Shown here: positions 7,153 to 32,755 of the stretch, in pieces
How positions within the stretch are numbered: the first letter of the stretch is position 1
Layout of the letters: the number at the start of each line of letters is the position of its first letter
IMG/VR virus record: IMGVR_UViG_3300007735_000623
Location: 1-32,761 of that record
Origin: a virus
Strand: one strand, 5' to 3'
Length of the DNA stretch: 32,761 nucleotides
Notes under the pieces: generated by a model
Seen by the model: only the letters and a program-made list of their open reading frames with translations
What the model was told of the DNA's origin: nothing
Databases searched by the model: none
Translations under genes and position numbers: made by a program

Positions 7153-7722
7153 TTATAGGCTCATGTCCAGATCGAAGATTCCGCCATGAGCAGCTTCGTT
7201 CTTAACTTCCAGCGTGACTTCAGCCAGCAACTGAGTATTCTCAGAGTCACCAGTCTTAGCCAGATCGTTAGTCTGGAACGGACGCAGATACGCCAGAGCC
7301 GCATACTCAGGATCAAGGATCAGAGCATCACGGGTACGCATGAAGCGGTTAGGAACAACCGACATAGTGCCAAAGTCAGACATATAAACGTCAGCAGCAC
7401 CGATAATGGTAGTCGGAGTGTTCGACGGAGCCATGTAACGCTGTGCAGCGATACCAGCAAACGACGAAACCTTCTGCTTACCAGCAGCACCGACCATCAG
7501 AATCTTAGGCGAACCACCCGATACGAACACCTCAGACACTACAGTCTTCAGCAGAGCCTCGGTAAAGGTACGCTGAGTACCGTCAGTACGAGTCGATACG
7601 CCGATAGTTGCAGGATCAGCACCACCCGAACCAACGTCCGAGTTAGTCTTGATCCACGACAGGATCGAACCGAGCTTACGAGCAGTAGTCGAGGAACCAG
7701 CCGAACGACCTTGGTTAGCCAA
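7153..7722 (-). CDS. Major capsid protein, C-terminal part (frame continues across an in-frame amber)
   Basis: This is the larger part of an HK97-fold-type capsid protein of the SU10/DUF5309-like family: it contains PATIGVSTRTDGTQRTFTEALL, a loop SGGSPKILMVGAAGKQKVS, and the C-terminal segment DALILDPEYAALAYLRPF followed by an acidic strand. The frame is the same as that of the N-terminal part at 7753-8097, and together they encode about 314 residues, a normal length. A TAG at 7753-7755 interrupts it. The only nearby in-frame starts are weak (TTG 7722), with no well-spaced ribosome site, so independent translation is doubtful. The open frame runs from 7752 with ELKRDLETILLANQGR joining the halves seamlessly. 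Confidence 0.85.
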   Translation of the reverse strand: MANQGRSAGSSTTARKLGSILSWIKTNSDVGSGGADPATIGVSTRTDGTQRTFTEALLKTVVSEVFVSGGSPKILMVGAAGKQKVSSFAGIAAQRYMAPSNTPTTIIGAADVYMSDFGTMSVVPNRFMRTRDALILDPEYAALAYLRPFQTNDLAKTGDSENTQLLAEVTLEVKNEAAHGGIFDLDMSL

Positions 7723-7752
7723 CAGGATAGTCTCTAGGTCACGCTTTAGCTC

Positions 7753-8097
7753 CTACGAGGCCTTAGCAAGTTGGTAAGCTTTTTCAGATTTTCTCCCGGC
7801 TTTATTAACTGCATCCAGAGTACCCGAAACCTGAACGGTCTTTTGGATGATCTGAGTGTAGTTACCAAGACGAACGGTAGGAGACAGAGTAGCCGATGTA
7901 GCGTCTGCACCTTCAATAGCTGCGTTACCAGTCGTAGCAGCAGCTAGGCTGTCAGTCTGCCACTCATGATAAACGGCTGTAGCTTTGGTCTTGCCAATCG
8001 AACTCATGAAAGGAGTCTCAGTAGGCGAGATGTTATAGATAATGTCGGTCAAATCTTCGCGCTGACCAATCGCGCTATGTGCTGTAAATGTAGGCAT
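7753..8097 (-). CDS. Major capsid protein, N-terminal part ending at amber codon 115
   Basis: The 114 residues before the stop match the N-terminal arm and early strands of SU10-like capsid proteins: TAHSAIGQREDLTDIIYNISPTETPF, then YHEWQTDSL and RLGNYTQIIQKTVQVSGT, then the helix AGRKSEKAYQLAKAS. In intact relatives I would expect this helix to continue with Lys-Glu-Leu-Lys-Arg. Here the codon at the Lys position is TAG, and the following codons encode ELKRD in the same frame. A single-base change from AAG would explain it. The gene begins 9 nt after the scaffold gene's own TAG. As one virion cannot form without this protein, the stop must be an artefact, a variant or be suppressed. Confidence 0.85.
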   Translation of the reverse strand: MPTFTAHSAIGQREDLTDIIYNISPTETPFMSSIGKTKATAVYHEWQTDSLAAATTGNAAIEGADATSATLSPTVRLGNYTQIIQKTVQVSGTLDAVNKAGRKSEKAYQLAKAS

Positions 8098-8106
8098 GAT
8101 AATTTC

Positions 8107-9078
8107 CTATAAGAATCGTTCAAATGCTCTTGCGGCATCAGCAACCCTTCCGGTCTGCTTTGCACGCGCCTTTAATTTCTTCAGTTCTTCGTTAGAATCC
8201 CTAGGCTGAGAAACCCCCGGTTTTAATACCTTTGGAGCCTCGTTTACCTTTTTAGTAATTCCGGGCTTAGACGATACTAACTTGTCGTATTGCATCGCCT
8301 TCCATAACGCTAGAACCTGCCGAGAATCATAGATTCCCGATAACTCTTGGTCTGAAAACCCTAACTTTAGGCCAAACTCCCTCAGTTCTCGCCGAGTTAC
8401 TTCACCCTTTTGCGGATCAGCATATTCAGGTAATGCCTCTGCCAGTTTACGAGCCTCAGCCTGTATTACCTGACCAAGTTGCTCCTGACGTTCCTGCTGC
8501 TGCTGTTCTGCAATTCGCTGTCGTTCAGCTTGGACTTGAGCCAACTGCTCTTTTCTCCGCTGCTGATCCGTATATGCGATGGCATAACCGATTGGATCGT
8601 TTTCCTTTAGTGCTTCTAGGTTTTCACCTTCTGGCTGCTGATTGAGCATTTGCTCGATAATCTGCAACCGTTCTGCGTATTGGTCACGCAGATACCTAGC
8701 TTCCTCGATACGCTGCCTCTCTGCTTCTACGGCTTTGCGTTCTTCAGCTACGGCTTGCGATTTCTTTGTATAGTCTGTGCCAAGTTGATAAGACTTGATA
8801 AGCTCATCAAGGGTTACCTCACGTTCTTCACCGGCTGCTTTCACCCGGAACTTTTGAGGCTCCTCTTGCTCATCCTGCTCATCTTCTTGTTCTACCTCCG
8901 ATTCGTCATAAGACTCCTCGGATTCGGCTTCGCTATCATTGGCTTCGGCTTGGAGTTCAGGTTGTTCCTGTTCGGAGCCTTCTTCTCCACCCATAAGACC
9001 CATAATAGCGTCGGCTGCACCACCTACAGTTAACTCTGGACTACCGGAATCCGGTGTCGTTCCTTGAGTATCGCTCAT
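8107..9078 (-). CDS. Capsid scaffolding protein
   Basis: This 323-residue protein is very acidic in the first third (runs of Glu/Asp/Ser around residues 30-75). It then becomes a long charged coiled coil rich in Gln, Glu, Arg and Ala (AVAEERKAVEAERQRIEEAR and later segments). It ends in a basic tail (KLKARAKQTGRVADAARAFE), as is usual for the capsid-binding end of scaffolds. Position immediately before the capsid gene is diagnostic. The stop is TAG at 8107-8109 and forms part of the AGGA ribosome site of the capsid gene, whose ATG is only 9 nt on and in the same frame. Confidence 0.85.
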   Translation of the reverse strand: MSDTQGTTPDSGSPELTVGGAADAIMGLMGGEEGSEQEQPELQAEANDSEAESEESYDESEVEQEDEQDEQEEPQKFRVKAAGEEREVTLDELIKSYQLGTDYTKKSQAVAEERKAVEAERQRIEEARYLRDQYAERLQIIEQMLNQQPEGENLEALKENDPIGYAIAYTDQQRRKEQLAQVQAERQRIAEQQQQERQEQLGQVIQAEARKLAEALPEYADPQKGEVTRRELREFGLKLGFSDQELSGIYDSRQVLALWKAMQYDKLVSSKPGITKKVNEAPKVLKPGVSQPRDSNEELKKLKARAKQTGRVADAARAFERFL

Positions 9079-13141: not shown

Positions 13142-14482
13142 TTACTTCTTTGGTTTCTTCTCTTGCTTTTTTGGCAATTCTACTTGAGTTGATCCTATTA
13201 GTCCTACTGGCAATCCTGCTGCCAGAATGTCTGTCGATCCCATCTTAGCTGGATCGAACTGAGCAAACTTAGACCGTATTTGAGATGGGTTGAATACTAC
13301 GCCTACATCAATCAGTTTTGCTGTTCCTGCTCCCGGATCATAAGTATTTCTCATAATCAACGCATCATGCCCACCAGCTTTAGCCTGAGCCACAAGGTCT
13401 GCGTAAGTCTGATCCCTATATGCACTACCTTTAAAGTCGTAAACCATCGGATTCTTATACCGCAACGCTATAGGTAAAACATTTGCCCCACTCTGAACAT
13501 CTAGGGCTAATCTTTCGGCTGTTACAGACTTGTACTTATCAATGGCATTTACTACGTCAGCAGCTTTGTCTTTTCCTAATTTATTTATTAGTTCTTTTTT
13601 AACAGTTTCTAGTTGTGCAGGATTGTTATACCAGCCGTATCCCATCAATTTTTTAAATGCCGCATCTGACGCTTCTGCTTCAGACTGAGACATTGGCTTG
13701 TTATACCAAGCATCTTGTATTTTAGATAACATCATATCGCGGGCATCGCCATGTTTAGCAACTAACGACTGAGCTTGGTTCATTCGTTTTGTTTCTAACT
13801 CCTCAGCAATTTGTATCTGCTTTTCATATTCTGACCAATTTCTATTTTTTTCAGCAGCGGCTGCTTTACGCATTGCTTCTCGGTATTCTCTACTTCCACC
13901 AATCTGAGCATATCCTGATGCTTGATCCGCACCATGACCTTTCATTGAAACCGTATTCATGGCTTCAATTTCTGCGTCTGACTTACCCAATCTTTTCAAG
14001 AAAGCAATAGTATCTGGATCGTTAGATTTGCGAGTCATCTCCTTTGGTGGAGCAATCGGGTCTCTAGCAAAGAAAAACCCTTGTTTTGCACTAGCAGCAC
14101 CCGTAGCCTCACCAAGTAAATCTGGCTTAAATTCCTTAATATCTCCTGTCGTGCCGTGATACCAACCAGTATCGTAACCCTGCTCTAACATCCTTTGCTC
14201 TGGTGTACCTAACAAACCTGATGCAACTTTAGGAGTCTTGATGCTGCTCTGGAACTGAGCTAGATCAAATAGCTTCTGATAGTACGGAGTCTGCGTTATA
14301 TCCCCACCAGCTTGCTGAACAGCACGATACTGCTGCTCCTCTGCCCTAGTAGGCAAATATCTAGCCGTAGTCTGAGTTAGCCATTCCTGCGGATTACTCG
14401 CAAGCAAGCCAAGACCAGCCTTAGCAGCCTGTTTCTGTCTGTCAATCGCGCCTAATGCGCTAGAAAGTAATCCGTCAGCCAT
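13142..14482 (-). CDS. ADP-ribosyltransferase-like (ART-PolyVal-type) protein in the packaging module
   Basis: At 446 residues this resembles phage polyvalent proteins with an ART fold. Residues 107-112 read WYHGTT, the NAD-binding His-containing strand; residues 133-140 read KQGFFFAR, matching the second strand; and a C-terminal block has LRYKNPMVYDF, GGHDALIMRN, then VVFNPSQIRS (residues about 396-403), a strand-turn region of this class. The region between is helical and Lys/Gln-rich (about 160-300). The catalytic Glu cannot be pinned down. Proteins of this kind may be injected with DNA and modify host proteins, like T4 Alt; that role is inference. It ends in a Lys-rich tail (KKQEKKPKK). 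Confidence 0.65.
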   Translation of the reverse strand: MADGLLSSALGAIDRQKQAAKAGLGLLASNPQEWLTQTTARYLPTRAEEQQYRAVQQAGGDITQTPYYQKLFDLAQFQSSIKTPKVASGLLGTPEQRMLEQGYDTGWYHGTTGDIKEFKPDLLGEATGAASAKQGFFFARDPIAPPKEMTRKSNDPDTIAFLKRLGKSDAEIEAMNTVSMKGHGADQASGYAQIGGSREYREAMRKAAAAEKNRNWSEYEKQIQIAEELETKRMNQAQSLVAKHGDARDMMLSKIQDAWYNKPMSQSEAEASDAAFKKLMGYGWYNNPAQLETVKKELINKLGKDKAADVVNAIDKYKSVTAERLALDVQSGANVLPIALRYKNPMVYDFKGSAYRDQTYADLVAQAKAGGHDALIMRNTYDPGAGTAKLIDVGVVFNPSQIRSKFAQFDPAKMGSTDILAAGLPVGLIGSTQVELPKKQEKKPKK

Positions 14483-23568: not shown

Positions 23569-24201
23569 ATGGATAACCAATTAGATAAGCAGGTTTACGA
23601 AAAATTGCAACGAGCTAGAGTAGAGTTGCAAGGCGTAAAACTAGAGAAGTCCGGTCATAACAAGTTCGCTGGATATAAATACTTTGAACTTGCAGACTTC
23701 CTGCCTACGGTGAACAAGATTTTCTTTGATGTTGGCTTATCGCATACGTTAGAGTTTACGGATACGCTGGCAACTATGTTGATTGTTGATACTGAATTAG
23801 GTGGAAGTTGTAAGTTCACTTGCCCTATGGCTACAGCAGAACTTAAAGGTTGTCATCCAGTACAGAACCTCGGAGCTTCAATCACCTACATTACTCGTTA
23901 TCTGCTGGTCATGGCTTTAGCTATCTGTGAACACGATGCTTTAGACGCTACAACAGGCAAGGATGAGCCTAAATCTGCAAAGCCAATCACTAAGGATGTA
24001 TTTGATTCACTGGATCAGCAGTCTCAGGATGAGATTAAGAGTTATGCAGCAGACATCATTATGATGCTACACAAAGATCAAGTAGGTGACGCTGTGGAGT
24101 ACATCAATTCTCTGGAACTAGATGCAGATTGGAAGGCTGCACTCTGGAGCCAGTTGGATAGCAAGCAACGATCAGCAATCAAGAAATTCGCACAAGGATA
24201 A
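23569..24201 (+). CDS. erf: ERF-family single-strand annealing protein
   Basis: The 210-residue recombinase begins with VYEKLQRARVELQGVKL and has KSGHNKFAGYKYFELADFLP, the signature block of the ERF superfamily (PF04404). The continuing VNKIFFDVGLSHTLEF, then CHPVQNLGASITYITRYLLVMAL, match the conserved core ending in a Tyr/Arg strand. ERF proteins anneal complementary single strands for phage recombination and can circularise DNA. Residues 140-210 form a variable helical tail. It is followed by an SSB-like protein, its usual partner. Confidence 0.9.
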   Translation: MDNQLDKQVYEKLQRARVELQGVKLEKSGHNKFAGYKYFELADFLPTVNKIFFDVGLSHTLEFTDTLATMLIVDTELGGSCKFTCPMATAELKGCHPVQNLGASITYITRYLLVMALAICEHDALDATTGKDEPKSAKPITKDVFDSLDQQSQDEIKSYAADIIMMLHKDQVGDAVEYINSLELDADWKAALWSQLDSKQRSAIKKFAQG

Positions 24202-24203
24202 TC

Positions 24204-24461
24204 ATGAAGAAAAAATACGATGAAGATAACTCAGGCACACTAGGTAAAAACACTAGACAGCGACCTGATAAAAAAGACCCTGAATACTCAGGTGAAGTTA
24301 AAGTCGATGGAACAGAATACTGGCTATCTGCTTGGATTAAAACGAATGGTGAAACAGGTGAAAAGTTCTTCAGCCTAGCGTTTAGACCCAAAGGCGAAAA
24401 GAAACCTGTAGAAGCAAAGCAAGAATTTAAGGACGATGACCTTGGCGATGTGCCATTTTAG
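24204..24461 (+). CDS. SSB-like protein with acidic C-terminal tip
   Basis: This 85-residue protein has NSGTLGKNTRQRPDKKDPEYS then VDGTEYWLSAWIKTN and a FFSLAFRPK strand, a pattern of phage proteins related to DUF736 with an OB-like fold. The C-terminus ends in DDDLGDVPF, matching the acidic tip (DDDxxF) by which bacterial SSB proteins recruit partners. It is far shorter than cellular SSB (about 175 residues) and lacks a long linker. ATG 24204 follows the ERF stop after 2 nt. It probably coats single-stranded DNA for ERF. Confidence 0.75.
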   Translation: MKKKYDEDNSGTLGKNTRQRPDKKDPEYSGEVKVDGTEYWLSAWIKTNGETGEKFFSLAFRPKGEKKPVEAKQEFKDDDLGDVPF

Positions 24462-29322: not shown

Positions 29323-30789
29323 TTACTTACCTTTAGCGCGATTTGCTTGATACATGATGTTATATGCTCTAGGGTCAAATGCTTGTGGGATAACTTGCTC
29401 TACTGCCCAAGGTGCGCGAGACAATAAACCAGCACCGTAAGCAGCCTCACCCATTAGTCTAGGAGATGATGCAAGCAATGACGCTGTGGCTAATGGAACG
29501 CCACCTGCTGAGAAAGCACCAGCAGCAGTACCTAAAGATGTAGCTCTTTGGATGCCCATAGGAGTCAATTCAGCTAATGATTGACCAGCCAAAGCAGGGA
29601 AAATATCTCCACCAGCAGCACTTAGCTCTTTACCTAACGCTACACGCTGGCCAAAGTTTGTATTGACGTTCTTACGCATCAACGACTGTAGCTTACGAGT
29701 AGCAGTATCAGCACTAGCCTTTTGGCCTAATGACAATGATCTTTCAATCTCTTTAATAAGCTCCGATGCCTCTGCATAATCACGCATTACCTTCGCATAA
29801 GTAGGAGCTTGCTTAGTAATCTCAGACTTTACAGAGTCATAAACACCACCAACTGCTGCTCTAGCTTGCTTCTGTTCGTAAGGGATATTCTCTAAAACAT
29901 CGCCAATCTTTTGCTTTAGCGCATCAAGACCCTCTGGTGTATGGAAATCAGCAGGGTTCTGAGCTTTCCAATCATCAACAATGTTTCTAACTGTCTCAAG
30001 TTCATTAAAGGCACGCTCATTAACAACCTTACCTTTGTAAGATGTTTTATTCTGAGCCGTTTGTACCGCCTGATCTATACCTTTGAAGTCTAGTACGGTC
30101 TTATCACCCTTGATATTGACCATGCCAGAGCGATACTGAGCCTGTTTAGCTTGGTTCATGTTGGCAAGATTCTGCTTTGCCATATCCAGAACATCAGTCA
30201 TTGGCGCAGTACCAGTAATGTTTGACCGGAACTGTTCACCAGCAGTACCACCTTCACGACCAGCTTTATAAGCCTGTTTAATAGCTTCTGTTCCAGCACC
30301 AGTAGTCATTCCCAAGACAGGAGCTACAGCCTTACCTACGGTTCCTACAGTCTTTGCAGTTAGCGATAGAGGATCAACCATCGATGCTGCTTTACCCAAC
30401 TTAGGAACAGCAGCACTACCACCAGTTAGCACAGCAGAAACATCCGATAGAAATCCAGCAGGATCGTTAGCGATAGTGCGTTTAGCTTGCTCTACGCCAC
30501 CATAACGCTGCACATATATCTGCCCAACTTTATTAGCAACTTCCCTAGATGCTTTGTCCTCACCAATGGCTTGAACAACGCTCTCAGGCAATACATTTTG
30601 CAAAGCACCAGCACCAATATCTAAGATAGTCTTGCCAGTCTGCAATGGGCTAGTAACCGCCTCATAGGTTCCCATTAGTACGTTTTTTAGCGAACTAGGG
30701 AAAGTCTTAACGGCCTGAGTAACGACCTCTTTACCAGTCATTGACTCGCTTTGTCCAACAGGACGAGCAGAAGCTAGATCAAATGCCAT
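29323..30789 (-). CDS. Candidate internal virion/ejection protein
   Basis: The 488-residue protein is Ala/Gly/Lys-rich. It has N-terminal GQSESMTGKEVVTQAVKTFP, hydrophobic segments such as ILDIGAGALQNVLPES, and long helices (FDVQ-type RSNITGTAPMTDVLDMAKQN; ARAAVGGVYDSVKSEI). The C-terminal 100 residues carry GTAAGAFSAGGVPLATASLL, a small-residue membrane-like segment. I infer an internal head or DNA ejection protein from the composition, size, and place between the similar gene and the fibre. No lysozyme motif is visible. The start overlaps the upstream stop (TAATG). Confidence 0.55.
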   Translation of the reverse strand: MAFDLASARPVGQSESMTGKEVVTQAVKTFPSSLKNVLMGTYEAVTSPLQTGKTILDIGAGALQNVLPESVVQAIGEDKASREVANKVGQIYVQRYGGVEQAKRTIANDPAGFLSDVSAVLTGGSAAVPKLGKAASMVDPLSLTAKTVGTVGKAVAPVLGMTTGAGTEAIKQAYKAGREGGTAGEQFRSNITGTAPMTDVLDMAKQNLANMNQAKQAQYRSGMVNIKGDKTVLDFKGIDQAVQTAQNKTSYKGKVVNERAFNELETVRNIVDDWKAQNPADFHTPEGLDALKQKIGDVLENIPYEQKQARAAVGGVYDSVKSEITKQAPTYAKVMRDYAEASELIKEIERSLSLGQKASADTATRKLQSLMRKNVNTNFGQRVALGKELSAAGGDIFPALAGQSLAELTPMGIQRATSLGTAAGAFSAGGVPLATASLLASSPRLMGEAAYGAGLLSRAPWAVEQVIPQAFDPRAYNIMYQANRAKGK

Positions 30790-32236: not shown

Positions 32237-32755
32237 CTAAATAAGACTAAGCTGCGGTACTCCAAACGACGATCTTTGTTGTTGTACTGGTATCTGTTTT
32301 CCAGTCATTAAACCCGATCTAGCTCTCATCTCAGCTAATCGCTGTGCATCTTCTTGAGCATTTTGTTGCATCACGTTTGATGCTAGATTCATCTGGAAAG
32401 GGTTTTCTTTAGCAAACTTAGTTGCTGCACCAATCTGATCCATTAACGTAGCAGGAGCAGTTATTGATGGGATAAGACCTGTTGAGCCACCTGTAGCAGC
32501 AAATGTCGGCATCGTAGGTGTAGCAAATGCCCCCGTACCAAAACTAGCTATAGGCGCACTAGCAGCAGTGCCAACAGGAACCGCACTAGCACCAGTCATT
32601 CCAGCAGTCGCAGCCGCATTACCAGCACCTAAAACAGCACCACCTATGCCACCGCCAATCCCGCCCAATAACGCGCCAGTTAAAGGATTCCCGCCCCTAG
32701 CGGCAGATGAAACCCCACCTATTAGCGCACCTATTAACATAGGAATAGGTATCAT
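32237..32755 (-). CDS. Glycine-zipper virion protein
   Basis: The 172-residue protein starts MIPIPMLIGALIGGVSSAAR and has repeated small-residue helices (ALLGGIGGGIGGAVLGAG), the pattern of glycine zippers that insert into membranes, followed by a Thr/Ala/Pro-rich linker and a polar C-terminal helix (QMNLASNVMQQNAQEDAQRL). Such proteins in short-tailed phages are small ejection proteins that form a channel. The stop is TAG at 32237. The 4 bases before ATG 32755 include TAA at the window end, probably the stop of another gene. Confidence 0.65.
   Translation of the reverse strand: MIPIPMLIGALIGGVSSAARGGNPLTGALLGGIGGGIGGAVLGAGNAAATAGMTGASAVPVGTAASAPIASFGTGAFATPTMPTFAATGGSTGLIPSITAPATLMDQIGAATKFAKENPFQMNLASNVMQQNAQEDAQRLAEMRARSGLMTGKQIPVQQQRSSFGVPQLSLI

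Follow-up and report, generated by a model that had tools for sequence, protein, structure and literature searches.

An isolated in-frame TAG at codon 115 of the major capsid gene in a metagenomic phage contig

The question raised by this locus is whether a TAG codon inside the major capsid gene of a phage is a functional feature or a lesion. The window analyzed here is the whole virus record of 32,761 bases, and it may fall several kb short of the complete genome. Two features define the problem:

7153..8097, minus strand: major capsid protein gene of the SU10/DUF5309 type, 314 codons plus TAA, cut by a TAG (assigned from PF17236, relatives and solved homologues)
7753..7755, minus strand: in-frame TAG at codon 115 of the major capsid gene (read directly; absent from all relatives)

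The capsid frame runs on the minus strand from ATG 8097 to TAA 7153, and the TAG at 7755-7753 is its sole internal stop. The frame is open on both sides of codon 115 and is the same before and after it. The original prediction had described such a TAG in a frame otherwise intact over 314 codons, and this was confirmed by direct reading and by a genome search of the record, which reported one internal TAG. When the TAG was taken as a residue, the translated frame matched Pfam SU10_MCP (PF17236) with an E value of 3.6e-105 over residues 9-310 of 314, which is the full-protein profile of an SU10-type capsid. Solved homologues are 9ny2 and 7z45. The likeness to these proteins is one of full-length similarity in which residue 115 can be aligned, within the AYQLAK..ELK.D.E stretch of SU10-type capsids, and the residues flanking the stop, S114 and E116, are invariant. 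The difference is that known members have a sense codon at position 115 and an intact frame, whereas the frame here is interrupted by TAG. The gene lies between the scaffold gene (8107-9078) and more head and tail genes. Judged by its sequence, it is a capsid gene by descent, with a predicted product that is cut when read by the standard code. Our verdict is that the TAG is real in the given sequence but is not a functional feature. In our reading it is a nonsense lesion without function, standing alone at a variable position in a capsid gene that is otherwise intact and conserved.

Codon 115 was compared in 80 tblastn-confirmed IMG/VR loci with 75-97% protein identity, and more loci were added by pattern scans. 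None of the 80 relatives had a stop at this codon, nor did any of the further pattern-scan loci. The 80 relatives encode Ala (mostly GCT), Ser (AGC, TCT and others) or Gln (CAA/CAG). Lys (AAA) was found only in some relatives at ∼66–68% identity, so the change from AAG to TAG proposed in the original prediction is not supported by any close relative. IMG/VR was scanned with two degenerate DNA patterns in which codon 115 was set to TAG, and no other contig matched, in a search where near-identical records may be hidden. As a positive control, the second pattern with codon 115 left free matched 140 of the 155 loci collected, a set in which some contigs are represented by overlapping pieces. With TAG it recovered the window itself, indicating that the pattern works. 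Across the loci compared and scanned, the TAG at codon 115 is private to this contig. In several relatives codon 115 is one substitution away from TAG, and two of these (L120 and L129) have it in the same codon context.

When the window capsid was aligned with 83 full-length ungapped relatives, it had no private residue besides the stop. Compared with L002, one of the nearest relatives, there were 34 synonymous and 6 non-synonymous codon differences behind the stop, and 19 synonymous and 4 non-synonymous differences in front of it. The lack of private residues indicates that there has been no decay behind the stop, which is therefore very recent, technical, or read through. Fast-changing tail genes and orphan genes aside, the capsid gene is the only conserved gene of the window that is cut while all relatives continue, in this case by 200 codons. 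Gene-by-gene alignment showed the other conserved genes to be intact and to end about where the genes of the relatives end. Genome decay was ruled out, as no other conserved gene is broken.

The TAG lies in a short tract that stands out from the rest of the gene:

7732..7815, minus strand: tract of codons 95-122 with synonymous codons of a second allele family, containing the TAG (found by codon comparison)

In these 84 bases, the closest relatives with the common allele type have another codon at 19–22 of 27 positions, nearly always a synonymous one, versus ∼15–28% of codons elsewhere in the capsid gene. The flanks of the tract are mostly 85–98% identical to L002. The excess of differences gave a hypergeometric p of ∼1e-6 to 1e-11, for a region that was picked after looking. 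The second allele family is present in L093, L100, L107, L106, L005/L090 and L010/L084, and also in the more distant capsids L064, L091, L095, L120 and L129. The tract is better matched by L093, L100, L107, L064, L095, L120 and L129. The same peptide is written in two synonymous families, one of the AGA/AAA/CAA/CTA type and the other of the CGT/AAG/CAG/CTG type. The two codon families appear to move between capsid genes by exchange of a short block. The TAG may have been brought in with the tract or have arisen within it. Patches of low identity to L002 also occur in other parts of the contig (8160-8279 and 8460-8639 are examples), which makes the tract a case of ordinary phage mosaicism or of mixed-strain assembly. 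The window also encodes an Erf-like annealing protein (23569-24201), which would fit frequent recombination.

A consensus or assembly error of this one metagenomic contig is our preferred explanation, with a rough probability of 0.55. The cause would then be technical and not a real mutation in the sequenced molecule. The TAG would contain a miscalled or low-coverage base, in a stretch where two capsid alleles may be mixed and the assembler would have been forced to choose a path; a mosaic tract is a place where mixed-population assembly may mis-resolve. The TAG is private, alone and not conserved, and its position inside the 84-base tract also counts for an error. Against an error, the tract is coherent coding sequence with, the TAG aside, almost only synonymous differences and not random noise, and nothing else on the contig points to poor quality. 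Low-identity patches are frequent throughout the contig, so that ordinary recombination is as good an explanation of the tract as mis-assembly. The original prediction had offered an error, a defective population member or true suppression, and had proposed comparing related genomes at this codon. That comparison favours an error or a defective member, excludes full recoding and adds nothing for suppression. The original prediction makes no mention of the tract of foreign synonymous codons around the TAG.

A real nonsense mutation is possible, and we hold it to be a serious though less probable explanation. The genome would be defective and short-lived, maintained by complementation during co-infection with intact phage. 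The otherwise clean contig and the relatives' codons a single step from TAG at position 115 are consistent with it, as is the undecayed sequence behind the stop, which would be expected if the mutation were very young. However, the defective molecule must have been abundant enough to become the consensus, and null alleles of the capsid gene are expected to be rare. In laboratory amber mutants of classical phages, a single amber in the capsid gene is expected to be lethal unless the host is a suppressor. The locus resembles these mutants in having a single amber in that gene, but it comes from a natural contig with no known suppressor host and its origin is possibly technical.

Readings in which the full capsid is made depend on how TAG is used in this genome. 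The nearest gene end is informative:

8107..9078, minus strand: scaffold gene directly upstream of the capsid gene, ending in TAG (phrog_3927; gene-end comparison)

The 40 genes of the window end in TAA (18), TGA (18) or TAG (4), and none of them, with 414 Gln codons in total, has an in-frame TAG elsewhere. The scaffold gene ends in TAG in the window and in TAG or TGA in the relatives. Gene 24204-24461 ends in TAG where relatives use TAG, TGA or TAA, and the TAG ends at 32237 and 15164 follow the same pattern. Most stops of the relatives are at, or at most 2 codons from, the same column as those of the TAG-ended genes. TAG-ended genes thus stop at or near the column where relatives use TGA or TAA, indicating that TAG is read as a stop here. 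Of the TAG-ended genes listed in the original prediction, those at 8107, 15164, 24459 and 32237 were confirmed, while 17900, 26543 and 27966 close unmatched frames of 68–79 codons. If TAG were read as Gln, scaffold and capsid would be fused into one frame of 641 aa. A search for tRNA genes gave none in the window, which may lack several kb, and none in nine long relatives (35–39 kb) and parts of two more.

True suppression, in which an amber suppressor tRNA of host or phage inserts a residue at the TAG to give full-length capsid, has a low probability. Position 115 tolerates A, S and Q, so that many inserted residues would do, and the frame behind the stop is fully conserved. The tRNA could be encoded in the kb of genome that may lie outside the window or in the host. 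In search of the host, a genome contig scan gave only 41–46% relatives, in three proteobacterial genomes. On the other side, no tRNA gene was seen in the genomes searched, no second in-frame TAG occurs in the 40 genes, conserved genes terminate with TAG close to the positions at which relatives terminate with TGA or TAA, and the scaffold would also extend into the capsid. The TAG is not shared by any relative; stop conservation, as expected of programmed readthrough or suppression, was seen neither in the fetched relatives nor in the IMG/VR pattern scans. Single-codon suppression is therefore unlikely. Even more doubtful is that the capsid is made only in some, amber-suppressing hosts, the codon having arisen very recently from a sense-codon allele. 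If suppression were true, capsid production would be tied to a suppressor host, which would be surprising. Pyrrolysine at codon 115 was rejected, as the relatives have A, S or Q there.

It is very improbable that the capsid is split into a 114-residue N-terminal part and a C-terminal part started downstream, working as two chains. TAGGAG resembles a ribosome site by chance, but the nearest GTG after it is out of frame and followed by ACC TAG. The in-frame starts after the stop are TTG 7722, which is the first, GTG 7539/7530 and ATG 7497, and none has a well-placed ribosome site, in agreement with the original prediction that there is no credible restart. The stop also falls between the invariant S114 and E116, and no split homologue was seen. 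An AlphaFold model of the capsid, of low confidence (mean pLDDT 42), suggests one helix of residues 103-131 running through the site, and a split would cut it. A frameshift bypass was rejected because the frame is identical before and after the stop, which makes a single shift useless, and translational hopping because the alignment shows no coding gap.

Genome-wide recoding of TAG (translation table 15) is the weakest candidate and is rejected, being refuted by the gene ends. The likeness is that a virion gene contains an in-frame TAG, which is also the case in Crassvirales-like phages (PMC10607447). Among recoded phages, phAss-1 has 41 ORFs with TAG and encodes three suppressor tRNAs (PMC10607447), and an amber suppressor tRNA is present in 52.4% of the phages predicted to use table 15 (PMC11210395). 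In contrast, the capsid gene is alone among conserved genes here in having an in-frame TAG, and TAG still terminates 4 of 40 genes at conserved ends. A tRNA with a CUA anticodon, a feature that is not universal in table-15 phages, was found neither in the window, which may be short of several kb, nor in the long relatives examined. The argument of the original prediction against full recoding is upheld by these ends. Recoding is ruled out by the conservation behind the stop, the homologous gene ends and the absence of the stop elsewhere. The locus is of interest mainly as a worked caution, showing how comparison with relatives can resolve a single stop within an essential gene on a metagenomic phage contig.

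A group I intron co-conversion footprint was considered as the source of the tract and rejected, as the intron of L045/L109 sits at about codon 18–20; no insertion near codon 115 was present among the loci found by the codon signature of the tract. The intron (RF00028, 73.7 bits in each) interrupts the capsid gene after about codon 18 at 5045-5341 of L045 and 822-1118 of L109. The same kind of split match places an intron in L111, which is on the contig of L045, and in L124. Besides the intron, the capsid gene of L109 (1153-1856) is without ∼62 residues (228-289), through an assembly error or a deletion. Two other frames of the window have no PHROG match. One, of 488 aa (29323-30789), has no counterpart in the relatives compared, and the other, of 446 aa (13142-14482), has only its N-terminal part in common with relatives.
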